Positions 49,428 through 63,522 of a stretch of 64,000 bases of DNA are shown piece after piece. The stretch comes from Pseudomonadota bacterium (GTDB lineage: Bacteria; Pseudomonadota; Alphaproteobacteria; UBA828): positions 1 through 64,000 of the forward strand of contig JAQBTG010000013.1 of NCBI GenBank assembly GCA_027624955.1, read 5' to 3'. Numbering within the stretch: the stretch's first letter is position 1; each line of letters begins with the position of its first letter. A program made the translations under genes and the position numbers. The notes under the pieces were generated by a model. It was given only the letters and a program-made list of their open reading frames with translations. It did no database searches and was not told where the DNA came from.

Positions 49428-51473
49428 ATGGGCAAAGATGTAAGTATAGACGTCGGCGGCACGTTTACGGATTTCGTCGCCTACGACCGGGACACACGCA
49501 AACTCACCGTTTGGAAGACGCTGTCGACACCGGACGATCCCGGAGAAGGCATCGTCGGCGGGCTCGAGCAGGCCGGACCGGCTGGCGAAATCGAGCATCT
49601 CCGCTTCGGCACCACCATAGCCACCAATGCGGTGCTTGAGCGCAAAGGCGCGACAGTGGCCTATGTCGCGACGCATGGCTTCCGCGATGTGCCGTTCATC
49701 CAGCGCGGCAAGCGCCAGAGCCATTACGACATCACCTGGATCAAATCCAAGCCGTTGATGAAGCGCCGCCATGCCTACGAAGTGGCCGGGCGCATCACCT
49801 CGCGCGGCGACGAATATATTCCGCTCGACGAAGCCGGCGTGCGCGACGTGGCGCGGCGAATTGCCAGGGATGGGCGCATCCAGGCGATCGCCGTCTGCCT
49901 GCTGTTCTCCTATGTCACGCCGGTGCATGAGCGCCGGGTGAAGGAGATATTCGGCGAGATTTGCCCCGACATTCCGGTGTCTATTTCGTATGACGTGCTG
50001 CCCAAATGGAAGGAGCATGAGCGCTCCTCCACGACCCTAGCGGACGCCTATATCAAGCCGCTGGTCAGCGGCCATCTGGCCAGCCTGAGCACGCGTTTTG
50101 CCGAACAGGGCGTCAACAAGCGGATCGCCGTGATCAAATCGAACGGCGGCGAAATGACGCTCGAGGCCGCCGCCCAAGCACCAATCCAACTGACCCTCTC
50201 CGGCCCCACCGGGGGCGTGGTCGGGGCCAAGCAAATCGCCCGCCTGGCCGGCGTCGATCACCTCGTCACCCTTGATATGGGCGGCACCTCGACCGATGTT
50301 TCCACCGTGGTCAATGGGCGCGAGAGCTTCACCACAAGTTTCGAGATTGAGTTCGGTGTGCCGATTCAGATTCCGATGATCGACATCCGCACCATGGGTG
50401 CGGGCGGCGGCTCACTGGCCTGGATCGACAAAGGCGGCATGCTGCGCGTGGGCCCCGAAAGCGCCGGTGCGGCGCCCGGCCCGGCGTGCTATGGCCAAGG
50501 CGGCTCAGCTGCGACAGTCACTGACGCCAATCTGGTGCTCGGACGCATCAATCCGACAAACTTCCTCGGCGGCCAAATGGCGCTCGATGTGGCGGCGGCG
50601 GAAAGCGCAATTGCCAAGGTCGCTGCCGAAATCGATAAATCGCCACAGGAAACGGCGCTCGGCATCGTGCAAATCGCCAACAACAACATGATCGGCGCGC
50701 TACGCTCTGTGCTGACCGAGCGCGGCCTCGATCCGCGCGATTTCACCCTGCTAGCTTTCGGCGGCGCGGGGCCGGTGCATATCTCCGATCTGATGCCGCT
50801 CGCCAATATTCCGTCCGGCATCGTGCCTAATTATCCCGGCCAATTTTCCGCCTTCGGCTTCACCATGACCGATGCCCGCATTGATGTGGAACGCACGACG
50901 CCGATGACCTCAAAGGCGTTCCGGCGCGATCATGCCAATGGAGTGATCGACGATCTGGTGCGCGAATCCACAGCGGCGCTCGGCGACCAGGGCTATAGCG
51001 CCACCATCGAAATCTACCGCTCGCTGGAGATGCGCTATTTCGGCCAAAATCATGAGCTCGAAGTGCCGATCGATTTCGAGCATTTCGACGATGCCAGCAT
51101 TGCCTCAATATGGCAGAGTTTTCACGCCGCCCATAAGGCGCGCTACAATTTCGATATCCCGGGCGAAACTATCGAGCTGATCAGCATCAAAGTGACGGCT
51201 ATTTCCGTCAGCGAGCGCTTGCAGCTGCCGAAATTGCCGGCGGCGACTTCGCCGCCCGAGCCGATCGACACGCGCTCGGTGATCTTCGACGACGGCGCCC
51301 ATGACGCCAAGGTTTATGACCGTGCGGCGCTGCTGGACGGCCACCGGCTGCGAGGCCCGGCTTTAATCGAAGAGCCGGCTTCGATCACCGTTATCCGGCC
51401 GGGGCAAGATGTCCGCGTCGATACATACGGCAATCTGCTGCTCGGCGATATCGCCAACGCTACAACTTCGTAG
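49428..51473 (+). CDS. hyuA: Hydantoinase/oxoprolinase subunit A (HyuA), pair 4
   Basis: The product has 681 residues. Motifs: SIDVGGTFTD (lacking the usual leading V/G), GTTIATNAVLERKGA, IKSNGG, SGPTGG, DMGGTSTDVS and TMGAGGGS. These resemble acetophenone carboxylase and N-methylhydantoinase A members as much as hydantoinases. It follows the small zinc protein and precedes HyuB by 34 bases. The gap includes a 15-bp tandem duplication. It is likely to act with an ATP-dependent HyuB on an amide or ketone. Confidence 0.88.
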   Translation: MGKDVSIDVGGTFTDFVAYDRDTRKLTVWKTLSTPDDPGEGIVGGLEQAGPAGEIEHLRFGTTIATNAVLERKGATVAYVATHGFRDVPFIQRGKRQSHYDITWIKSKPLMKRRHAYEVAGRITSRGDEYIPLDEAGVRDVARRIARDGRIQAIAVCLLFSYVTPVHERRVKEIFGEICPDIPVSISYDVLPKWKEHERSSTTLADAYIKPLVSGHLASLSTRFAEQGVNKRIAVIKSNGGEMTLEAAAQAPIQLTLSGPTGGVVGAKQIARLAGVDHLVTLDMGGTSTDVSTVVNGRESFTTSFEIEFGVPIQIPMIDIRTMGAGGGSLAWIDKGGMLRVGPESAGAAPGPACYGQGGSAATVTDANLVLGRINPTNFLGGQMALDVAAAESAIAKVAAEIDKSPQETALGIVQIANNNMIGALRSVLTERGLDPRDFTLLAFGGAGPVHISDLMPLANIPSGIVPNYPGQFSAFGFTMTDARIDVERTTPMTSKAFRRDHANGVIDDLVRESTAALGDQGYSATIEIYRSLEMRYFGQNHELEVPIDFEHFDDASIASIWQSFHAAHKARYNFDIPGETIELISIKVTAISVSERLQLPKLPAATSPPEPIDTRSVIFDDGAHDAKVYDRAALLDGHRLRGPALIEEPASITVIRPGQDVRVDTYGNLLLGDIANATTS

Positions 51474-51507
51474 CACAAAGCTTCGTAACACAAAGGAGAG
51501 CCGCATC

Positions 51508-53232
51508 ATGGATATGGTCACGATGAACATCGTCGATTCCGCCATGGTCGCCATTTGCCGCGAGATGGGCGTGAACGTCCAGAAAACGGCTTATTCCACG
51601 ATCTTCAGCGAAGCCGAGGATTTCACCTGCGCGCTCGCCAGCCCCGAGGGCGATATGATCTCGGTGGCCGAATTTTGCCCGGCGCAGATCGGCGGCGTGC
51701 CGCTGCTGGTGCGCTCGATGGTGAAGGAAATAACCAATATCGAACCGGGCGATGTGATCGTCCATAACGACCCGTATCGGGGCGGCCTGCATACGCCCGA
51801 ACACACCATGTTCAAACCGATCTTCGTCGCTGATGAATTGATGGGCTTTGCTGTCTCGATCGGCCATTTCGTCGAAGTCGGCGGCATGGTGCCGGGTGGC
51901 TTTCCCGGCGAGGCAACAGAGATTTTCCACGAAGGTCTACGTGTGCCGCCGGTGAAGCTGATAAAGCGCGGCAAGGACGTGCCGGAAGTGTGGAAGCTGC
52001 TGCTCGCCAACGTGCGCACGCCGCGCGGCAATTATGGCGATCTCCGCGCTCTAATCAGCGCCGTCGATATGGGCGAGAAACGCCTGGTCGAGCTGATTGA
52101 GAAATACGGCAAGGAGACCTTCCGCCAGACCGTCAGCGATTTGATGGATTATTCCGAATCGCGCATGCGCGCCGAGATCGCCGCCTTCCCGGACGGCCGC
52201 TACACCTTCGAAGACTGCCTGGAAGACGACGGCATCGAGGCCAAGGAATATTGGATTCGCGTCGCCGTGAATGTGCAGGGCGATGAAGTGGTGATCGACT
52301 ACACCGGCTCATCGCCGCAGGCCAAGGGGCCGATCAACGCCACCCTCGGCGTCGCCTGGTCGGCTTCCTACAACGCCATGCTGCACCTGACCGATCAGAC
52401 GATTCCGAAGAATTCCGGTTGTTTCCGCCCGATCCGCGTGATTGCGCCGGCCGGCACGGTGATGAACGTCAATTATCCCGGCTCTGAAGTCGGCGGCAAC
52501 ACCGAGACCCATCCGCTGATCGTCGCCTGCATTTTCGGCGCCATGTCGGAATGCGCGCCGCACCGGGTGATGGCCTCGGAAGGCACGACGCATGGCTGCT
52601 TCGTCTTCGGCGGCCACGACAAAGAGAATGACGAGCCGTTCGGCGCCTTTGATTTCACCTATGTCGGCTATGGCGGGCGGCAATTTGCCGATGGCAACGA
52701 CGCCACCGATTCGATCAACGGCAATTGCGCCAACACGCCGACGGAAGTGTTCGAAACGCGCTATCCGTGGATCGTTGAGGAATATGCGCTGCGCCCCGAT
52801 TCAGGCGGCGCCGGCGAATATCGCGGCGGCCTCAGCATTTCCAAAACCATGCTGTGCACCGACGACGTGACGATCAGCCAGATGACCAACAAGCATATTC
52901 GTACTTCTTGGGGCCTCAAAAAGGGCAAACACTCCGTCTCCGGCGCCACACTTTATCAGGCCAAAGGCGCGAATGATTGGCAGACCATCAAGCAAGCGTT
53001 CGGCAAGGTCTCGTCGAGCAAATATTCCAACGTGCCGATCGGCCCGGATGAGCGCATCTCGGTAAAAGCGCCGGGCGGCGGCGGCTTCGGCGACCCGGCA
53101 AAGCGCGACCGCGCGGCAATCGTCGAAGACGTGCTGGAAGGCTATATCAGCCGCCAAAAAGCCACCGAGGATTACGGCTTCAAAGAAAGCTGGATCGCCC
53201 AATACGCCCCGGAAGACGCCGCCGCAAAGTAA
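51508..53232 (+). CDS. hyuB: Hydantoinase/oxoprolinase subunit B (HyuB), pair 4
   Basis: 574 residues from the ATG at 51508 (AAGGAGAG upstream). The start is MNIVDSAMVAICREMGVNVQKT. The metal-site region reads NDPYRGGLHTPEHTMF: the second aspartate of NDPY.GG.H..D is replaced by a TPEH sequence, as in acetone/acetophenone carboxylase-like members as I recall. The end (VKAPGGGGFGDPAKRDRAAIVEDVLEGYIS) is standard. It is the last gene of the plus-strand run from 46628. The substitution sets this pair apart from pairs 1 and 3. Confidence 0.88.
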   Translation: MDMVTMNIVDSAMVAICREMGVNVQKTAYSTIFSEAEDFTCALASPEGDMISVAEFCPAQIGGVPLLVRSMVKEITNIEPGDVIVHNDPYRGGLHTPEHTMFKPIFVADELMGFAVSIGHFVEVGGMVPGGFPGEATEIFHEGLRVPPVKLIKRGKDVPEVWKLLLANVRTPRGNYGDLRALISAVDMGEKRLVELIEKYGKETFRQTVSDLMDYSESRMRAEIAAFPDGRYTFEDCLEDDGIEAKEYWIRVAVNVQGDEVVIDYTGSSPQAKGPINATLGVAWSASYNAMLHLTDQTIPKNSGCFRPIRVIAPAGTVMNVNYPGSEVGGNTETHPLIVACIFGAMSECAPHRVMASEGTTHGCFVFGGHDKENDEPFGAFDFTYVGYGGRQFADGNDATDSINGNCANTPTEVFETRYPWIVEEYALRPDSGGAGEYRGGLSISKTMLCTDDVTISQMTNKHIRTSWGLKKGKHSVSGATLYQAKGANDWQTIKQAFGKVSSSKYSNVPIGPDERISVKAPGGGGFGDPAKRDRAAIVEDVLEGYISRQKATEDYGFKESWIAQYAPEDAAAK

Positions 53233-53337: not shown

Positions 53338-55617
53338 ATGAAGATTGCCTGTATCGGCGGCGGGGCTGCCGGACTTTATTTTGCTATCTCGATGAAACTG
53401 CGCGATCCCGGCCACGACATCACCGTGATCGAGCGCAATCCGCCCGGCAATACCTTCGGTTGGGGCGTGGTGTTCTCCGACGCCACCATTCAAAATTTGC
53501 GCGATAACGATCCCGAGACGGCACAGGAGATTCTTGCCAGCTTTGCCCATTGGGACGATATCGATGTGCATTTTAAGGGTACGACCGTCACTTCGGGCGG
53601 GCACGGGTTTTGTGGCATCGCGCGCAGTCGGTTGCTGAATATCCTGCAACGGCGCGCCGCCGCGCTCGGCGTCGAAATCATCTTCGAGACCGAAGTCGAG
53701 AGCCTAGAGTCCTATCTAAGTTATGACCTGGTGGTCGCCGCGGACGGCTTAAACAGCCGAGTGCGGGAGACTTACGCCGAAAAATTTCAGCCGAGCGTGG
53801 ACGTACGCAAGAACCGCTTCATCTGGCTCGGCACCAAGCACAAGTTCAACGCCTTCACCTTCATCTTCGTCGAGACCGAGCATGGCTGGGTGTGGGCGCA
53901 TGCTTATCGTTTCGATAGCGATACCTGCACCTTCATCGTCGAGATGTCCGAGGAAACCTGGCAGGCGTTGGGGCTCGGCAATATGCCGCTCGGCCAGGGT
54001 ATCGAATGGTGTGAGAATTTGTTCGCCGAACAGCTCGAGGGCGACAAATTGATCAACGATGCGCCACATCCGAGCGACGAAGCGTGGCGCAAATTCCCCG
54101 CCATCTCCTGCGCCCATTGGTCGTTCGACAATGTGGTGCTGATGGGCGACGCCGCGCATACCGCGCATTTTTCGATTGGCTCGGGCACCAAGCTCGCGTT
54201 CGAGGACGCCATTAGCCTGGCCGACCTGATCACCGAGAAAGGCGAACTTCAGGCGGCGTTCAAAGTGTACGAAGACGAGCGCCGGTTGGAAGTGATCAAA
54301 TTGCAAAGTGCGGCGCGCAACTCGACCGAATGGTTCGAAGACCTGCCGCGCTATACGGCGTTGGAGCCGATCCAGTTCGCCTATTCCCTGCTGACGCGGA
54401 GCCAGCGGGTGAGCCATGAGAATCTGCGTCTCCGCGACAAAGTCTGGCTCGAAGGCGTGGAATCCTGGTTCGCCGAACGGGCCACCGGAAAGTCGGGGCA
54501 AGCGGCGGTGCCGCCGATGTTCACGCCTTATCGTTTGCGCGGCATGGAATTGGCCAACCGCATCGTCGTCTCACCGATGGCAACCTATAGCGCGAGCGAC
54601 GGCGCGCCCAATGATTTTCATCTGGTGCATTTGGGCGCGCGCGCCCAGGGCGGTGCCGGGCTAATTTTCACCGAGATGACCTGCGTCAGCCCCGAAGGGC
54701 GCATCACCCCAGGCTGCACCGGCATGTATCGTGACAGCCACGCTAGTGCTTGGAAGCGCATCGTCGATTTCACCCATGCGGCGGGCGCAGCCAAGATTTG
54801 CCTGCAGCTCGGACATTCCGGCGCCAAGGGGTCGACCAAGATCGGCTGGGAAGGCATGGATGAGCCGCTAGAGGAAGGCGGCTGGGAGCTGATCGCGCCC
54901 TCGCCCATCGCTTGGTCGCCGGCCAACGCGGTCCCACGCGAAATGACGCGCGACGATATGGAGTTGGTGAAATCGCAGTTCCTCCATTCGCTGGAACTTG
55001 GCGACCAAGCCGGCTTCGATATGGTGGAACTGCATTTTGCCCATGGCTATCTCCTCTCCGCCTTCATCACGCCGCTCAGCAACCGGCGCGAAGACGCCTA
55101 TGGCGGCTCGCTGGAAAACCGCCTGCGCTATCCGCTGGAAATTCTTAGCGCGGTGCGCGAGCGCTGGGACAAGCCGCTGTCGGTGCGTATTTCCGCCACC
55201 GACTGGGTCAAGGGCGGCATCGAAATAGCGGACGCAGTGGCCATCGCCCGGCTGCTGAAGGCGGCTGGTGTCGATATCGTTAATGTCTCCGCGGGACAGA
55301 CCAGTATTGAAGCCCGGCCGATATATGGCCGCATGTTTCAGACGCCGTTTGCCGAGCGCATCCGGATGGAAACCGGCATGCCGACTATCGCGGTCGGCAA
55401 TATTTTCGAGGCGGATCATGTCAACAGCATCCTCGCCGCCGGGCGTGCCGATCTCTGCGCCCTGGCGCGGCCGCATCTCGCCAATCCAAACTGGACACTG
55501 CATGCGGCGGCTGAGCTGGGCTATGACGGCGTCGCCTGGCCGAATCCCTATTTAACCGGCAAAGAACAATTAGAACGCTTAACCGAACGGGCACAACAAA
55601 TGGCACAAATGATATGA
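53338..55617 (+). CDS. 2-aminobenzoyl-CoA monooxygenase/reductase-type fusion (or salicylyl-CoA hydroxylase-like)
   Basis: The product has 759 residues and is a natural fusion. Residues about 1-380 form a FAD aromatic monooxygenase ([16 protein letters not shown] at the start, [22 protein letters not shown] near 263-282). Residues about 395-759 form an old-yellow-enzyme flavin reductase ([26 protein letters not shown], then [19 protein letters not shown]). Azoarcus evansii uses exactly this fusion to hydroxylate and dearomatise 2-aminobenzoyl-CoA. Nearby ligase and kynureninase genes make that substrate more likely than salicylyl-CoA, which a related fusion attacks. Confidence 0.88.
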
Positions 55618-56387
55618 GCAGCGGCACAGCACTCAAAGGCAAGCACGCCTTCATTACCGGCGGCGGTCACGGCATCGGCGGCGCCAGCGCCGAAGTACTC
55701 GCCGCAAGCGGCGCAATATTGACGCTTACCGGGCGCAATATGGAGAAACTCGAAGCGAAGGCGGCGAGGTTGCCCGGCGCAGAGGTGCGTCAGCTCGATG
55801 TGACCGACGAAGATGCGGTCAAGCGGGTGTTCGCTGAAGCCGCGGCGTCGCTTGGCGCCATCGATATCCTGATTAACAATTCCGGCATCGCGGAGACCGC
55901 GCCGTTTATGCGCACCTCGTCCGACATGTTGCGCCGCCTCATGGAAGTGAATTTGATCGGCGCGCATATCTGCACCCAGCAGGTGCTGCCGGCGATGATC
56001 GAGGCGGGATGGGGGCGCATCGTCAATATCTCCAGCCTCGCCGGGATTTCGGGCCAGCCCTATATCGCCGCCTACTGTGCCTCGAAGCACGCCATGGTCG
56101 GCCTGACACGGGCCCTGGCCCTCGAAGTCGCAAAGAAAGGCATCACGGTGAACGCCGTCTGCCCGGCTTATGTTGAGACCGGCATGGTCGAGAAGGGCGT
56201 CGAAAACATCCAGAAACTCACCGGCATGAGCGCGGACGACGCACGCGGCGAGTTGGCCAAGAAAAACCCGCAAGCGCGCATCATCGAGGCCAGTGAAGTT
56301 GGCGCCACGGTGGGCTGGCTGTGCCTGCCCGGCTCGGAATCGATCACCGGACAATCCATCGCCATGGCGGGGGGAGCGTGGATGTAA
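55614..56387 (+). CDS. Short-chain dehydrogenase/reductase in the aminobenzoyl-CoA operon
   Basis: The product has 257 residues with an ATGA overlap with the previous gene. TGGGHGIG-type cofactor motif at about residues 15-22, NNSG in strand 4, and the catalytic [23 protein letters not shown] (Ser, Tyr, Lys). It probably oxidises or reduces a hydroxy/keto acyl-CoA intermediate of the ring-degradation route, which in Azoarcus needs a beta-hydroxyacyl-CoA dehydrogenase-like step. A general reductase cannot be excluded. Confidence 0.85.
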
Positions 56388-56431
56388 TGGCCCGCGCAGC
56401 CAGAAATACCAGCTCGCGCAGCGAGGAAAAA

Positions 56432-56893
56432 ATGGCGGAGGGTAAAGAATCGCTCCGCTTGTGGCTGAGGCTCTTGACCTGTTCGACCATGATAGAGCGC
56501 GAGGTACGGACGCGACTGAGAAACGAATTTGACGCCACCTTGCCGCGCTTCGACATGATGGCGGCGCTTGAGCGCGCGCCCGATGGTCTCAGCATGGGCG
56601 AGCTGTCGCGCCGCCTGATGGTGTCCAACGGCAATGTCACCGGCGTCGCCGACCGCTTGGCGCGCGAGGGCCTGGCAAAGCGCTGGTCGCCGCCAGCCGA
56701 CCGGCGCTCCTCGCGGCTCGCCTTGACGGCGCGCGGTCGCAAGGAATTCTCAGGCATGGCGAAAGCGCATCAAAGCTGGATCGAAGAGATGATGGCGGGT
56801 CTGAATGCCGCGGAGCGCGATGCGCTGATGGCGCTGCTCACCAGGGTTAAACTTTCGATCGGCTCGGAAGATGAAGGAAGAGACGCGGCATGA
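56432..56893 (+). CDS. MarR-family regulator inside the aminobenzoyl-CoA operon
   Basis: 153 residues from the ATG at 56432, which has GCGAGG six bases upstream. An ATG at 56387 overlapping the previous stop (TAATG) would add 15 residues and is the alternative. Winged-helix motifs: [40 protein letters not shown] and the wing [16 protein letters not shown]. It overlaps the enoyl-CoA hydratase start by four bases. Its ligand is likely an aryl-CoA, because MarR-type repressors of this arrangement respond to CoA thioesters. The palindrome before the operon is a candidate site. Confidence 0.85.
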
Positions 56894-57699
56894 AATTGAC
56901 ACAGTATAAAGCGGCGCATTTCCTATGGTCGACGGAGGGCGGCGTGGCGACGATTACCCTGAACCGCCCGGAGCGCAAAAATCCGCTCACCTTCGATTCA
57001 TACGCGGAGCTGCGCGATTTGTTCCGCCGCCTCAGCGATGCCGAGGATATCGATGCGGTGATCATCACCGGCGCCGGCGGCAATTTCTGCTCCGGCGGCG
57101 ACGTGCATGAGATCATCGGTCCGCTGACCAAAATGAACATCGGCGACCTGCTCGAATTCACCCGTATGACCGGCGATCTGGTGAAGGCCATGCGCGCTTG
57201 CCGCCAACCGGTGATTGCCGCCATCGACGGTGTCTGCGCCGGCGCGGGCGCGGCGGTCGCCATGGCGGCCGATATGCGCCTTGGCACGGCGCAAAGCAAA
57301 ACCGCGTTTCTCTTCGTCCGTGTCGGCCTTGCCGGCTGTGACATGGGCGCCTGCGCCATCCTGCCGCGCCTGATCGGCCAGGGCCGGGCCGCCGACCTGC
57401 TGTTCACCGGCCGCGCCATGTCGGGCGAAGAGGGCGAGCGCTGGGGCTTCTTCAATCGCCTATGCGCGCCGGAAGAGCTGCAAGCTGAAGCTGTGAAATT
57501 GGCGCAACGCCTCGCCGACGGCCCCAATTTCGCCCATGGCATGACCAAGACCATGCTCAACCGGGAATGGGATATGGGCCTCGACGCCGCCATCGACGCT
57601 GAAGCGGAGGCCCAGGCGATCTGCATGCAAACGCAGGATTTCCAGCGTGCGTTTGAAGCCTTCGCGGCTAAGCAGAAACCCGTCTTCGAGGGCAATTGA
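56890..57699 (+). CDS. Enoyl-CoA hydratase/isomerase family protein
   Basis: The product has 269 residues of the crotonase fold. Oxyanion-hole segments: [17 protein letters not shown] (about residues 58-74) and [23 protein letters not shown]. The glutamates of the usual hydratase pair are not clearly conserved, so another crotonase reaction (isomerisation or ring hydrolysis) is possible. It is translationally coupled to the MarR gene and followed immediately by an acyl-CoA dehydrogenase gene. A role in beta-oxidation-like ring opening of the reduced aminobenzoyl-CoA is likely. Confidence 0.85.
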
Positions 57700-58868
57700 T
57701 GGCCGATCACAGCTTTCTAGATTGGCCGTTTTTTACGCCCGCGCACCGCGACCTGGCGCTGGCCCTCGATGCCTGGGCCGGCAAGAATCTCGGCGATATC
57801 GATGAGACGGATGTTGACGCGGCGTGCCGTGAATTGGTGCGCCGCTTGGCGGCGGACGGCTGGCTCGACCATTGCGTGCCGACGGCCTATGGCGGCGCGT
57901 CGGAAAAGCTCGATGTGCGGGCACTATGCCTCATTCGCGAAACCCTGGCGCGCCATTCGGGCCTCGCCGATTTCGCCTTCGCCATGCAAGGGCTCGGCAG
58001 CGGCGCCATCTCGCTCTATGGCAGTGACGAGATCCGCTCCGCCTATCTGCCGATGGTGCGCACGGGACAAAAAATTGCCGCGTTCGCCCTTTCCGAGCCC
58101 GTCGCCGGCTCTGACGTCGCGGCCTTGGCGACAACGGCAACGCGCGACGGTAATGGCTGGCGCATCGACGGTGAGAAAACCTGGATATCGAACGGCGGCA
58201 TTGCCGACTATTACACCGTCTTTGCTCGCACTGGTGAAGCGCCGGGAGCGCGCGGCCTGAGCGCCTTTGTCGTCGACGCCGATACGCCGGGCCTCGAGAT
58301 CGCTGAGCGCATCGACGTGATCGCACCGCATCCGTTGGCGCGGCTCACTTTCGACAACTGTCAGGTGCCGGCGGACCGCATGTTGGGCGCGCCGGGCGAG
58401 GGCTTCAAAGTGGCGATGGCGACGCTCGATATTTTCCGCTCGACCGTCGGCGCGGCGGCGCTCGGCTTTGCCCGCCATGCGCTGGATTTGGCGTTGGAGC
58501 GCGCCGCCACGCGCCAGTTATTCGGCGGCCCGCTAGCTGAATTACAAATCATCCAGGCCAAGCTCGCCGATATGGCGCTCGCCGTGGATGCCAGCGCGTT
58601 GCTGGTCTACCGCGCCGCCTGGACCAAAGATGTGAAGGCCGATCGCGTCACACGCGAAGCCTCGATGGCCAAGCTGTATGCCACGGAATCGGCGCAGATG
58701 GTGATCGACGAGGCGGTGCAGATATTCGGCGGACAAGGTGTTGTGTCCGGCGCGGCGGTGGAGAAACTCTACCGTGAAATCCGGGCGCTCCGCATATATG
58801 AGGGCGCCTCCGAAGTGCAAAAGGTCGTGATCGCCAAGGCCGCGCTCGCGGCACGGGAAAGCGCGTAA
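57699..58868 (+). CDS. Acyl-CoA dehydrogenase family protein
   Basis: 389 residues from the ATG that overlaps the previous stop (TGATG). Family marks: [48 protein letters not shown], a [20 protein letters not shown] helix and the C-terminal [40 protein letters not shown]. It should introduce a double bond into a CoA thioester with FAD and pass electrons to ETF. In this operon its substrate is presumably an alicyclic intermediate from 2-aminobenzoyl-CoA. Confidence 0.88.
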
Positions 58869-60502
58869 TGGTGGCGGAGAAGAGCGCGCATATCGATCGT
58901 TTCGCGGCGGAAAGTTTGCCGCGACCGGAGCAATTACCGACGCTTATCTTCACGCTCCCTGAACTGCACTATCCGGCCCGCCTGAATTGCGTCGCAGAAT
59001 TGCTCGACCGCGCCGTCGCGGAAGGCGATGGCAGCCGCACCGCTATCCTCGCGTCAGGCCTGAAATGGACGTACGCCGAGCTACAGCACAAAGCCAATTG
59101 CGTGGCCCAAGTACTCACCGAGGATCTGGGCGTGGTCGCGGGCAACCGGGTGCTGTTGCGCGCCGCCAACATACCGATGCTCGCCGCTTGCTGGCTCGGC
59201 GTGGTCAAGGCCGGCGCCATTGCCGTCGGCACCATGCCGCTCTTGCGGGCGCGCGAACTTACTGTGGTCATTGAAAAAGCCGAGATCGCTCTGGCGCTTT
59301 GCGACGAAAAACTGGGCGAGGAATTGACCGCGGCGCAAGAGCTTTCGCCCCGCCTCACGGACGTCATCCACTTTGACGGCGCCGGCGGACTAGAAGAGAA
59401 AATAGCGCTGAAATCCGGCCAATTTGAGGCCGTCGATAGCGCCGCTGAGGATATCTGCTTCTTCGCTTTCACCTCTGGCACCACCGGCGGGCCCAAAGGA
59501 GTCATGCATTGCCACCGCGACGTCCTGGCTGCGTGCGATTGCTTCCCACCGGCCTGCCTGAAGGCAACGAAGGAAGATATTTTCTGCGGCAGCCCGCCGC
59601 TTGCCTTTACCTATGGCCTCGGCGGATTGCTGCTGTTTCCGCTGCGCGCCCGTGCGGCAACGCTGCTTGTCGAGCAAGCCAGCCCGGACGGCCTCCTCGC
59701 GGCAATCGAAGAACACAAGGCGAGCATATTATTCACGGCGCCAACCGGCTTCCGCGCGATGCAAGAAAAGCTCGGCGGGTATGACGTATCCAGTCTTCGG
59801 CGCTGCGTCTCGGCCGGCGAAACACTGCCCAAGGCGACGTTTGATGCGTGGCGAGATGCCACCGGATTGGCGATCATCGACGGCATTGGCTCGACCGAAA
59901 TGCTGCATATTTTTATTTCTTCAGCGGATGAAGACATTCGCCCCGGCGCGACCGGCAAAGTGGTGCCTGGATACGAAGCGCGGGTTATCGGCGAGGACGG
60001 CAACGAGCTGCCGCCGGATGAAATTGGCCGCCTGGCCGTGCGCGGGCCGACAGGCTGCCGCTATCTCAAGGGCGAACGGCAAACGCATTATGTTGAGAAC
60101 GGCTGGAACTTGACCGGCGACGCCTACCGCATGGATGCGGACGGCTATTACTGGTTCGAAGCGCGCAATGACGACATGATCATTTCCGCCGGCTACAACA
60201 TTTCCGGCCCCGAGGTCGAGGCCGCTCTGCTCGAACATGAGGCGGTAATGGAAAGCGCCTGTGTGGCATCTCCCGATGAGGCGCGCGGCAATATCGTCAA
60301 GGCGTTCGTGGTTCTGCGCAGCGGCTTCTCCGGCACCGATGCGCTCATCAAGGCGCTGCAGGATTTCGTCAAAAGCCGGATCGCGCCCTACAAATATCCG
60401 CGCGCCATCGAATTTGTCGAAGCACTGCCCAAAACAGGCACCGGCAAGGTACAGCGCTTTCGACTGCGCGAAATCGAGAGCAAAAAGGCGGGGCGAGGCT
60501 GA
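58868..60502 (+). CDS. Aryl-CoA ligase, probable 2-aminobenzoate-CoA ligase
   Basis: The product has 544 residues of the AMP-forming ANL family. The P-loop is FTSGTTGGPKGVMH (about residue 202). Other motifs are IDGIGSTEMLHIF (A5) and NLTGDAYRMDADGYYWFEARNDDMIISAGYNISGPEVEAALLEH (A7-A8). The benzoate-CoA ligase-type layout has the C-terminal catalytic lysine in PKTGTGKVQRF. It starts the pathway by making anthraniloyl-CoA from anthranilate. The start overlaps the previous stop by one base (TAATG). A benzoate-CoA ligase is the alternative, but the gene context favours aminobenzoate. Confidence 0.88.
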   Translation: MVAEKSAHIDRFAAESLPRPEQLPTLIFTLPELHYPARLNCVAELLDRAVAEGDGSRTAILASGLKWTYAELQHKANCVAQVLTEDLGVVAGNRVLLRAANIPMLAACWLGVVKAGAIAVGTMPLLRARELTVVIEKAEIALALCDEKLGEELTAAQELSPRLTDVIHFDGAGGLEEKIALKSGQFEAVDSAAEDICFFAFTSGTTGGPKGVMHCHRDVLAACDCFPPACLKATKEDIFCGSPPLAFTYGLGGLLLFPLRARAATLLVEQASPDGLLAAIEEHKASILFTAPTGFRAMQEKLGGYDVSSLRRCVSAGETLPKATFDAWRDATGLAIIDGIGSTEMLHIFISSADEDIRPGATGKVVPGYEARVIGEDGNELPPDEIGRLAVRGPTGCRYLKGERQTHYVENGWNLTGDAYRMDADGYYWFEARNDDMIISAGYNISGPEVEAALLEHEAVMESACVASPDEARGNIVKAFVVLRSGFSGTDALIKALQDFVKSRIAPYKYPRAIEFVEALPKTGTGKVQRFRLREIESKKAGRG

Positions 60503-60930
60503 TGGCGGTATTTTCGCGCGATATTGCAGTGCATTTCAGCGATACCGACCCGGCAGGAATCCTGTTCTACCCGCGCTATTTCGAGATGACCAGCGCCCTG
60601 ATCGAGGATTGGTTCGCCGAAGAACTGGACCATCCCTTTAGCGCGATGCATCAAGGCACCGCATATGGCGTACCAACCCACAGCCTCGATATTTCATTCT
60701 CCGCCGCCAGCCGCATCGCCGATGTGCTGCGCTTAACGCTTGGTATCGCGCGCCTCGGCAAAACTTCCTTCACCCTCGACATCAGCGCAGCCTGCGGCGA
60801 CGAGCCACGCTTCAAAATGCGCCAAGTAATGGTCTATGCCGCGCTCGGCGAAGACGTGAAATCAGCACCGCTTCCCAGCGAATTGCGGGCGCGCATGGAG
60901 CGCTTCCTGATACCCGAATCAGCCGACTAA
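60502..60930 (+). CDS. 4-hydroxybenzoyl-CoA thioesterase-like protein
   Basis: The product has 142 residues with a hot-dog fold. The active motif HFSDTDPAGILFYPRYFEM places D16 where the catalytic aspartate of Pseudomonas 4HBT lies. It overlaps the ligase stop by one base. It probably rescues CoA by hydrolysing dead-end or excess aryl-CoA, a common companion of aryl-CoA pathways. A biosynthetic role is unlikely. Confidence 0.85.
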   Translation: MAVFSRDIAVHFSDTDPAGILFYPRYFEMTSALIEDWFAEELDHPFSAMHQGTAYGVPTHSLDISFSAASRIADVLRLTLGIARLGKTSFTLDISAACGDEPRFKMRQVMVYAALGEDVKSAPLPSELRARMERFLIPESAD

Positions 60931-60956
60931 ATATTTCGCCCCGAAAGGATTCCCAC

Positions 60957-61355
60957 ATGCAGATTTTGCAACCCCCCGGCTGGCGCCGCCCCGGCGGCTA
61001 CTCCAACGGCGTCGCCAGCGAAGGCCGGCTGGTGTTCGTCGCCGGCCTTGTCGGCTGGGACGAGAACAGCGAATTCCAGAGCGACGATTTTATCTCCCAG
61101 ACCGCGCAGACGTTGCGCAATACCGTCGCCGTGTTGGCCGAGGCCGGTGCTGGCCCTGAGCATGTGACGCGCATGACCTGGTACATCGTCGACAAGCAGG
61201 AATATGTGACACGCCAACGTGAAATGGGAGATGTTTACCGCGAGATTATGGGGCGGAATTTTCCCGCCATGGCGATGGTGGCGGTATCCGCGCTCATGGA
61301 CGACCGCGCCAAAGTGGAGATCGAAACGACGGCTGTCGTGCCGCACGTATCTTGA
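60957..61355 (+). CDS. RidA/YjgF-family protein
   Basis: The product has 132 residues. The start is GWRRPGGYSNGVASEGRLVFVAGLVGWD and the end is RAKVEIETTAVVPH, the RidA pattern, with the glutamate of VEIE as active-site partner. RidA proteins hydrolyse reactive enamines and imines to ketones and ammonia. The ring-reduction product of the aminobenzoyl-CoA fusion enzyme is an enamine, so this protein may catalyse its deamination. GAAAGGAT stands before the ATG. It ends four bases from the convergent kynureninase gene. Confidence 0.85.
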   Translation: MQILQPPGWRRPGGYSNGVASEGRLVFVAGLVGWDENSEFQSDDFISQTAQTLRNTVAVLAEAGAGPEHVTRMTWYIVDKQEYVTRQREMGDVYREIMGRNFPAMAMVAVSALMDDRAKVEIETTAVVPHVS

Positions 61356-61359
61356 GCGT

Positions 61360-62595
61360 CTAGGTTACCGCGCCGCTATCGCCAATCTTGTAATCTTGCC
61401 ATTCCTCGCTGCCGAGCACCGCGCTAAGCGCCTCGGCGGCGTCCCATATATCGACATAGCGCAGATAGAGCGACGCAAAGCCGAAGCGCATGACATCCGG
61501 TTGGCGGAAATCGCCGATGACGCCGCGCGCGATCAGTGCCTGGACCGCGCCAAATCCATTGACATAGGCATAGGAAACTTGGCCGCCGCGCGCGGCGGAA
61601 TCCTGCGGCGACAGCAGTTGCAGGCCATGGCCGGCGCAACTTGCCTCGATGCGCGCGATGAAAAGCTCGCTCAGCGCGACGGATTTTGCGCGCAGTGCCG
61701 CCATGCCGGCCTCGGCGAAAATATCCAGGCTGCTGTCCAATATGGCCAACGCGATAACCGGCGGTGTGCCCGAGAGCATGCGTGCGATGCCCGGCGCCGG
61801 GCGGAACCCAGCGGCGAACTCGAACGGCGCGGCATGGCCCATCCAGCCGCTGAGCGGCTGGCGGATAGCCGCCTGATGGCGCGCGGCGACAAAGATGTAT
61901 GCCGGCGCGCCGGGCCCGCCATTGAGGTATTTATAGCCGCAGCCGACAGCGAGGTCGGCTCCGGCGCCATTGAGGTCAAGCGGCACAGCGCCGGCGCTGT
62001 GGCTCAAATCCCATAAAGTGAGCGCGCCATGTGCCGCCGCGACGACGTTGATTGCCGCCATGTCATGGATGCGCCCGGTGCGGTAATTAACGTGGGTGAG
62101 CGACACTACCGCTGTATCGCCATCGATGGCGTCGATAATATCATCCGCCGGCACCAGGCGGCGCTCGACTCTGTCGCCGAGGAAATCGCCGACGCCTTCC
62201 GCGACGTAATTATCGGTTGGAAAATTGTCACAGTCAGTTAGCAATACACGTCTTTCGGGGCGGAGTGCGAATGCCGCCGCCAGCAATTTGAACAGATTGA
62301 CGGACGTAGAATCGCAGGCCACCACTTCGTCTTCCTTGGCGCCGATCAACTGCGCGATCTTGCCTCCCACCTTGAACGGCAACGCCATCCAGTCGGCTTC
62401 GTTCCAACTGCGAATGAGGCCGGTGCCCCATTGCTCACCGATAACGCGGGCCGCTCGTTCGACTGCCACCTCGGGCAGCGCGCCGAGTGAATTGCCGTCC
62501 AAATAAATCACCCCTTCAGGCAGAACGAAACGGCGGCGGAACGGCGCCATGGGATCGCGCGCGTCTAAGGCGATGCAGTCTTCTCTCGTCGTCAT
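61360..62595 (-). CDS. kynU: Kynureninase
   Basis: 411 residues from the ATG at 62595; the longer upstream frame runs into the tryptophan dioxygenase leader. The PLP lysine is in GCGYKYLNGGPG, preceded by the SHSAGA loop. IYLDGNSLG, HVNYRTGRIHDM and IGDFRQPDVMRFGFASLYL are kynureninase hallmarks. It splits kynurenine into anthranilate and alanine. It is divergent from tryptophan 2,3-dioxygenase and next to the anthraniloyl-CoA genes, so its product has an obvious local sink. Confidence 0.93.
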   Translation of the reverse strand: MTTREDCIALDARDPMAPFRRRFVLPEGVIYLDGNSLGALPEVAVERAARVIGEQWGTGLIRSWNEADWMALPFKVGGKIAQLIGAKEDEVVACDSTSVNLFKLLAAAFALRPERRVLLTDCDNFPTDNYVAEGVGDFLGDRVERRLVPADDIIDAIDGDTAVVSLTHVNYRTGRIHDMAAINVVAAAHGALTLWDLSHSAGAVPLDLNGAGADLAVGCGYKYLNGGPGAPAYIFVAARHQAAIRQPLSGWMGHAAPFEFAAGFRPAPGIARMLSGTPPVIALAILDSSLDIFAEAGMAALRAKSVALSELFIARIEASCAGHGLQLLSPQDSAARGGQVSYAYVNGFGAVQALIARGVIGDFRQPDVMRFGFASLYLRYVDIWDAAEALSAVLGSEEWQDYKIGDSGAVT

Positions 62596-62679
62596 TAGGC
62601 GATATTGCCTGTTGCTGAGGTCGAATGCACGGATTGCAGCGACGCCGCCGAAAGACCACAATCGTTGCCGGAGGTACGC

Positions 62680-63522
62680 GTGACCACAGACGACAAATCA
62701 GGCGGATTGCCCGACGGCGCGGCAACGGAATTCACCGACGCGATGAGCTATGGCGATTATCTTGGCCTGGAGCGCCTGTTGGCCTGCCAGGAGCCGCGCT
62801 CAGAGCGTCACGATGAAATGCTGTTCATCGTCATTCACCAGGCGACGGAACTGTGGATGAAATTGGTGCTGCATGAATTGACCGCCGCTATGGCGCATAT
62901 TCGCGCCGGCGATTTGCCGCCGGCCTTCAAGATGCTGGCTCGAGTGTCGCGCATTCAAGCGCAGCTGATACAGTCGTGGGACGTGCTGTCTACCCTGACG
63001 CCGGCCGATTACATGACCTTCCGCAGCGTGCTTGGCAACGCTTCGGGGTTTCAATCGCACCAATACCGCCTGATCGAATTTACCCTCGGCAACAAGAATC
63101 CAGCGATGTTGATGCCGCATCGCCATGACGCGCATGTCCATAGCCTTCTCAGCGCCGCGCTGGACGCGCCGAGCCTTTATGAAGAAGCGATACTGCTGCT
63201 GGCGCGCCGTGGCCTCGGCATCGATGCCGGCCAGATGAAGCAGAATTGGCGCGACGTGCATGACCCCGACGATTCGGTGCGCGGTGCCTGGCTCACCGTT
63301 TACCGCGACACGGAATCCCATTGGGACCTCTACGAATTGGCCGAAAAACTGGTCGATCTCGAAGATCATTTTCAGCAATGGCGCTTCCATCATGTGAGCA
63401 CGGTGGAGCGCATCATCGGCCACAAACGTGGCACTGGCGGCACCAGCGGCGTGCCATATTTGCGCCGCGCTCTCGAAACGCGGTTCTTCCCCGAGCTATG
63501 GGACATACGCACCGAGCTATAA
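62680..63522 (+). CDS. kynA: Tryptophan 2,3-dioxygenase
   Basis: 280 residues from a GTG at 62680 that follows CCGGAGG; an upstream ATG at 62605 would overlap the kynureninase promoter. Key parts: MLFIVIHQATELWMKLVLHEL (helix with the substrate histidine), FRSVLGNASGFQSHQYR and FHHVSTVERIIGHKRGTGGTSGVPYLR with the haem-ligand histidine. The enzyme opens the indole ring of tryptophan to N-formylkynurenine. The formamidase needed next is not in this window. Confidence 0.93.
   Translation: MTTDDKSGGLPDGAATEFTDAMSYGDYLGLERLLACQEPRSERHDEMLFIVIHQATELWMKLVLHELTAAMAHIRAGDLPPAFKMLARVSRIQAQLIQSWDVLSTLTPADYMTFRSVLGNASGFQSHQYRLIEFTLGNKNPAMLMPHRHDAHVHSLLSAALDAPSLYEEAILLLARRGLGIDAGQMKQNWRDVHDPDDSVRGAWLTVYRDTESHWDLYELAEKLVDLEDHFQQWRFHHVSTVERIIGHKRGTGGTSGVPYLRRALETRFFPELWDIRTEL

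Follow-up and report, generated by a model that had tools for sequence, protein, structure and literature searches.

The Rid proteins that have been characterised catalytically, as discussed in the available text of PMC8113886, hydrolyse enamines and imines. In RidA the carboxylate of the substrate is bound by Arg105/107, the loss of which almost abolishes the activity, and the substrates named for RidA (2-aminoacrylate, 3-aminoacrylate and imino acids) each carry a free carboxylate (available text of PMC4433059). Arg105 has been described as both needed for and predictive of the deaminase activity of Rid proteins (PMC5619798; PMC4433059), and the Arg-less Rid proteins tested in the available parts of published work gave no deaminase activity (PMC5619798, PMC4433059, PMC8113886, PMC7221256); Arg-less subfamilies have been called "mysterious" and their function "completely unknown" (PMC4433059). 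With RutC, deamination of 3-aminoacrylate runs at about 3.5 times its spontaneous rate; the protein can be dispensed with in the laboratory and in vivo, and its R104A mutant is dead on 3-aminoacrylate (available text of PMC8113886). In AmnE, the 2-aminomuconate deaminase, a loop covers the active cleft (PMC6742747).

For the breakdown of 2-aminobenzoyl-CoA, which starts with the 2-aminobenzoyl-CoA monooxygenase/reductase (ACMR), GapMind omitted in 2022 the degradation of tryptophan via anthraniloyl-CoA monooxygenase/reductase "due to a lack of knowledge" (PMC9007349), and the available text of a pathway review names no gene for the deamination (PMC4539516). C7H8O4-CoA, tentatively cyclohexanedione-carboxyl-CoA, was found only in anthranilate-grown cells of Arthrobacter Rue61a, and the enamine-CoA formed by ACMR was reported to be unstable below pH 5 (available text of PMC3534580). 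The published ligase and ACMR genes of this strain are borne on a plasmid. Enamine deaminases of COG251 were proposed for the benzoate regulons in a study of betaproteobacterial regulons, and not for the ACMR route in its available text (PMC6449761). As far as these sources go, the view of the initial annotation that the deamination step has lacked a gene agrees with the literature searched, including the GapMind omission (PMC9007349). No assignment of a Rid protein to the ACMR pathway was found in this literature, outside which most subscription papers lie.

The 2-aminobenzoate operon of Azoarcus evansii, studied by Schuhle et al. in 2001, reportedly encodes a ligase, the ACMR fusion, beta-oxidation enzymes and a MarR regulator, and the abstract is said to list "a putative translation inhibitor protein" among its products, with no function proposed. 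As this is the old name of the Rid family, the presence of a Rid gene in this operon was probably noted as early as 2001, without a function.

In the window analysed here (the whole 64,000-nucleotide stretch of DNA), the Rid gene is the final + strand gene of the run 53338-61355, at the end of the operon as had been annotated initially. The eight genes of this operon encode, in order and all on the + strand, the ACMR fusion, which would be the source of the proposed enamine substrate (53338..55617); a short-chain dehydrogenase/reductase (SDR; 55614..56387; PF00106/PF13561); a MarR-family regulator of uncertain start (56363..56893; PF12802; the longest ORF starts at 56321); a crotonase of the enoyl-CoA hydratase family (56890..57699; PF00378; NF006107 488.9 bits, cut-off 330), a possible ring-opening hydrolase; an acyl-CoA dehydrogenase with a TTG start (57696..58868; PF00441 and others); an aryl-CoA ligase, presumed to be the 2-aminobenzoate-CoA ligase (58868..60502; AMP-binding; TIGR02262 371.8 bits, just below the cut-off of 375.25); a 4HBT (YbgC-like) thioesterase (60502..60930; PF13279); and the Rid protein (60957..61355). 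The Rid gene begins with ATG at 60957, 26 nt downstream of the thioesterase stop codon and behind an AAAGGA-type ribosome-binding site, and encodes 132 amino acids. The match of its product to PF01042 is secure (E 1.1e-22; 80.8 bits, cut-off 27.3), so that a chance ORF is ruled out and the call of a Rid-family gene stands. Its 3' end lies 4 nt from the convergent kynureninase gene (61360..62661, - strand; TIGR01814 297 bits, cut-off 246), a source of anthranilate, beyond which lies the gene for tryptophan 2,3-dioxygenase (62605..63522, + strand; TIGR03036 409 bits, cut-off 391). Together with the operon these two enzymes presumably allow the conversion of tryptophan to anthranilate and on to CoA thioesters.

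The fusion enzyme of the initial annotation was confirmed by its FAD_binding_3 and Oxidored_FMN domains and by NF006101 (1250 bits, cut-off 1078). The NCBIfam name of the latter is "salicylyl-CoA 5-hydroxylase/oxidoreductase"; this name, and the RefSeq name "bifunctional salicylyl-CoA 5-hydroxylase/oxidoreductase", are probably misleading in ACMR operons. Its build from two flavoproteins, together with the ligase and the kynurenine genes, leads us to infer that the fusion is ACMR, and the adjacent kynureninase and tryptophan 2,3-dioxygenase genes, with homology, suggest that the enzymes of the operon act on 2-aminobenzoate rather than salicylate. Both marks of an aerobic 2-aminobenzoyl-CoA operon, the fusion of a monooxygenase with an old-yellow-enzyme (OYE) type reductase and the aryl-CoA ligase, are present. 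Searches of solved structures with the crotonase and ACMR gave general relatives only. Two ORFs of 681 and 607 aa (49428-53232) adjoin the operon, the latter matching the caprolactamase/acetophenone carboxylase family (NF050157, E 1e-100, below the cut-off).

Membership of the Rid superfamily is clear, but the label "RidA" of the initial annotation had to be given up, as the protein scores 55.9 bits against TIGR00004, the model of archetypal RidA (cut-off 106.25), and lacks Arg105; against the RutC model TIGR03610 it scores 27.6 bits (cut-off 169.1). After alignment with solved RidA-type proteins, Met105 occupies the site of the catalytic arginine and Gly91 that of Asn88; the positions of Tyr17 and Glu120 are held by Tyr15 and Glu121. 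Among 53 homologues linked to ACMR (see below), position 105 is Met in 51, Ile in one and truncated in one, Gly91 is found in 52 (one truncated), Tyr15 in 52 (one Phe) and Glu121 in 52 (one truncated). Trp34 and Trp75 are almost invariant, and positions 10-13 hold at least one basic residue in 52 of the 53 and at least two in 41. Widening the set to 108 rows with scores of 150 bits or more, some genes appearing twice, gives Met at position 105 in 103, Ile in three and Thr in two, and never Arg; Thr stands there in the sister genome G196, and Met is thus not essential. Judged by residues alone, the protein agrees with the Rid5/Rid6 types (Arg105 absent, the Glu retained and either Tyr or Phe at position 17).

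The fold is that of the Rid family: the AF2 model (pLDDT 96.5) gave a best VIA Z-score of 18.5 and Z above 14 for many Rid entries, with the alignments of Z 14-18.5 extending mostly over residues 21-132. Foldseek gave an rmsd of about 11 Å for many Rid chains, though all of them are Rid folds. The model is a monomer, and the active site between subunits lies outside its view.

The genome of the window carries 13 matches to PF01042, of which the nearest paralogue reaches 68.6 bits against the clade profile (213.1 bits for the gene under study), and one of the 13 (L001) keeps all of Tyr, Asn, Arg and Glu. The presence of L001, the missing Arg105 and the score below the TIGR00004 cut-off led us to reject the identification of the protein as housekeeping RidA. 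They also make it quite improbable that the protein serves general detoxification of 2-aminoacrylate or imines for PLP enzymes such as the kynureninase; that gene does adjoin Rid in the window, as it does in G196, the sister genome, but it was not found in the fetched flank of most of 80 ACMR loci examined. Still less credible is a 2-aminomuconate deaminase of the 3-hydroxyanthranilate branch. Such an activity is known for the Rid family in aromatic catabolism and kynurenine genes are adjacent, but AmnE keeps Arg117 in its active cleft for a free-carboxylate substrate (PMC6742747), this arginine is absent from the clade of the Rid protein, and the partners in the operon are enzymes of CoA thioesters; this candidate was therefore rejected as well. 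In a separate observation, an open frame of 433 aa (G000:C10:16231-17379; L008, L009, L013) carries a tandem array of three Rid domains. Proteins that join two or four such domains exist but have been described as rare (available text of Niehaus 2015).

As a test of the link between the Rid protein and ACMR, we took the 80 closest ACMR loci, each with flanks of up to 10 kb, and searched them with a clade profile made of the window protein and its matches. The Rid clade was found within the fetched flank of 53 loci, on the same strand as ACMR in 52 and upstream of it in one. The other 27 loci represent 27 genomes, all of which were searched, and Rid was detected elsewhere in 23 of these (13/13 plus 10/14), bringing the total to 76 of 80; in the remaining four (L043, L062, L072, L087) the ACMR contig stops short of the usual position of Rid. 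The record titles of the carriers include Alphaproteobacteria, Acidobacteria, Gemmatimonadetes, Opitutaceae, Bdellovibrionales, Anaerolineae, Deltaproteobacteria and Eremiobacterota. In several Sphingomonas genomes ACMR is isolated, and Rid belongs to a separate cluster that also holds SDR, crotonase, acyl-CoA dehydrogenase and ligase. Of nine stretches with Rid away from ACMR, six (L184-L189) keep ligase, acyl-CoA dehydrogenase and crotonase alongside, and in L182 these three lie a few kb from Rid; the L183 stretch has the ligase and, within it, no match to acyl-CoA dehydrogenase or crotonase, and the 6.6-kb contig L181 has none of the three. Four plasmids were examined among the records listed (40 of 2490; 60 of 83): three carry ACMR with Rid, and the fourth, of Sphingomonas daechungensis, carries SDR, crotonase, Rid and ligase, with ACMR on the chromosome (L057). 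The closest relative of the operon, L014 (87% ACMR identity), has lost Rid from between the thioesterase and the kynureninase (L014:16200-16560), and the only copy in its genome is a more divergent one (176.9 bits), on a different contig.

In four loci of Acidobacteria (L046, L049, L053, L064) ligase and Rid share a single open frame, and read-through translation of three of the four shows the C-terminus of the ligase running into an intact Rid domain. This fusion is independent evidence for a functional link. The fused arrangement, and the unreactive side chain (Met) at position 105, would also agree with a non-catalytic Rid protein, a subunit with a structural or regulatory task, stabilising the ligase or channelling the ACMR product. 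We consider such a role improbable, since the putative active-site residues Tyr15, Gly91 and Glu121 are conserved, and the two proteins are not fused in the other 49 of the 53 linked loci.

The association was also apparent in genome samples not centred on ACMR. With thresholds of E <= 1e-25 for the Rid profile and E <= 1e-150 for ACMR, Rid was detected in 76 and ACMR in 72 of the 385 genomes of the class sample: 66 have both, 10 Rid only, six ACMR only and 303 neither (Fisher p 6e-56, with related genomes treated as independent). In 38 of the 66 genomes with both, the two genes lie within 20 kb on one contig. The phylum sample of 150 genomes, which has genomes in common with the class sample, gave Rid in 17, ACMR in 16 and both in 16; in its sole Rid-only genome (G426) ACMR adjoins Rid after all and had been missed by the search, so the number of genomes with ACMR is a minimum. 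The other Rid-only genomes were re-examined for ACMR within fetched stretches of about 16-17 kb. The 80-locus and class sets overlap, since the contig of G351 equals that of L072 in length and is probably identical with it. Among the six ACMR-only genomes of the 72, the contigs of G351, G224 and G064 break off within ACMR or the operon or shortly after, ACMR is near a contig end in G025, and G226 has a completeness of 70%; G231, which looks complete, has no operon genes near ACMR.

Strict exclusivity was rejected, because 10 of the 385 genomes carry the Rid clade without detected ACMR; four of these score below 130 bits. Rid genes that are not beside ACMR, some of them in genomes without detected ACMR, lie near genes for acyl-CoA dehydrogenase/FAD monooxygenase, xanthine-dehydrogenase-type proteins, amidase or HGD-D (2-hydroxyglutaryl-CoA dehydratase-type) proteins. 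The calling of neighbours was crude (long spurious frames in G+C-rich DNA), and these contexts therefore serve as leads only. Two Rid genes without ACMR, one near a 2-hydroxyglutaryl-CoA dehydratase D-type gene (L134, in G125) and one near a molybdenum hydroxylase set of the xanthine-dehydrogenase type (L129, in G187), suggest other substrates for such Rid proteins.

Taken with the operon linkage and the ligase-Rid fusions, the co-inheritance with ACMR makes it close to certain that the Rid protein belongs to the 2-aminobenzoyl-CoA pathway. The initial annotation had placed it in this route as an enamine deaminase, on the ground that RidA proteins hydrolyse enamines. The first part of this reading is upheld, but its ground is not transferable, because Arg105, the published predictor of activity (PMC5619798, PMC4433059), is missing; the proposed deaminase role thus rests on context and chemistry. 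We propose, with a probability of roughly 0.6, that the Rid protein is a specialised hydrolase converting the CoA-bound enamine formed by ACMR into a beta-keto thioester. The product of ACMR, and substrate of Rid, would be the beta-enamine 2-amino-5-oxocyclohex-1-ene-1-carbonyl-CoA; its hydrolysis would give ammonia and 2,5-dioxocyclohexane-1-carbonyl-CoA, the ring of which could then be opened by the crotonase of the operon. Since the carboxyl of the ACMR product is bound to CoA, an arginine that grips a carboxylate would have nothing to hold. The loss of Arg105 fits such a substrate and disfavours 2-aminoacrylate and 2-aminomuconate, as the ACMR product has no free carboxylate. The replacements of Arg by Met and of Asn88 by Gly may represent adaptation to the CoA-thioester carboxyl and the ring, Met or Ile together with Gly for Asn giving a larger and less polar pocket, and the basic residues at 10-13, which lie around the position of AmnE's cleft-covering loop, could contact the CoA phosphates. 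To judge by the restriction of C7H8O4-CoA to anthranilate-grown cells, deamination appears to take place in vivo; the enamine-CoA was described as unstable under acidic conditions (available text of PMC3534580), so an enzyme may still have a part to play at neutral pH.

Against the hydrolase there is counter-evidence: the published Arg-less Rid proteins that were tested are inactive as deaminases and Arg105 is predictive of activity, Rid is lost from its usual place in L014, the sister genome G196 has Thr at position 105, and some clade members occur without detected ACMR. The deamination of the ACMR product might be spontaneous instead of enzymatic, and RutC, too, is dispensable in vivo. The Rid protein could also bind a CoA-thioester intermediate at another step (tautomerisation, hydration or opening of the ring, or release of a stalled intermediate), the enamine being hydrolysed by another enzyme of the operon or by water. 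The lack of deaminase activity in the Arg-less Rid proteins tested so far agrees with this, the pathway beyond ACMR is undefined in the available text of PMC9007349, and genomic linkage identifies the pathway but not the step within it. We regard another step as unlikely, though less so than the non-catalytic role, because the characterised Rid proteins hydrolyse enamines or imines (PMC8113886, available text) and the ACMR product bears exactly such a group.

The protein departs from the RidA pattern on which the first deaminase inference rested, and the proposed substrate would explain the departure. The odds are slightly in favour of a wider reading, that the Rid clade is a distinct subfamily that gave up Arg105 in adapting to enamines bound as CoA thioesters; if true, it would provide the first Arg105-less Rid protein with a physiological deaminase substrate, supply the missing step of 2-aminobenzoyl-CoA breakdown and overturn Arg105 as a predictor of deaminase activity. 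With the clade tied to ACMR across several phyla, and at times fused to the ligase, the function of an Arg-less Rid protein and the gap in the ACMR route can both be tested by one assay. Caution is also advised against annotating Arg-less Rid proteins as non-deaminases, as the substrate may have no free carboxylate.

Among the known systems, RutC of the E. coli pyrimidine utilisation operon is a precedent, by analogy, for a Rid protein of a catabolic operon acting on a beta-enamine. Its substrate is a beta-enamine carbonyl compound, and it speeds a step once thought to be spontaneous, in likeness to the role proposed here (available text of PMC8113886). Among compounds related to the ring beta-enamine formed by ACMR, 3-aminoacrylate is the simplest. 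RutC differs in its need for Arg104, which is absent here, and in acting on a free acid, not on the proposed CoA thioester. AmnE (PDB 6IZH) shares the Rid fold (VIA Z 14.9, rmsd 2.6, 106 aligned) and likewise deaminates an enamine in the breakdown of an aromatic amine, but it keeps Arg117 (PMC6742747), belongs to another pathway and is about 26% identical to the Rid protein. The nearest solved chain is PDB 5V4F, titled YyfB of Y. pestis and kept apart here from Y3550 (VIA Z 18.5, rmsd 1.7, 126 aligned). The Rid5/Rid6 types, such as Y. pestis Y3550, resemble the protein in having no Arg105, the Glu kept and an aromatic residue at 17 (available text of PMC7221256 and PMC4433059). These types have no assigned substrate, whereas the Rid clade described here has a fixed pathway partner.
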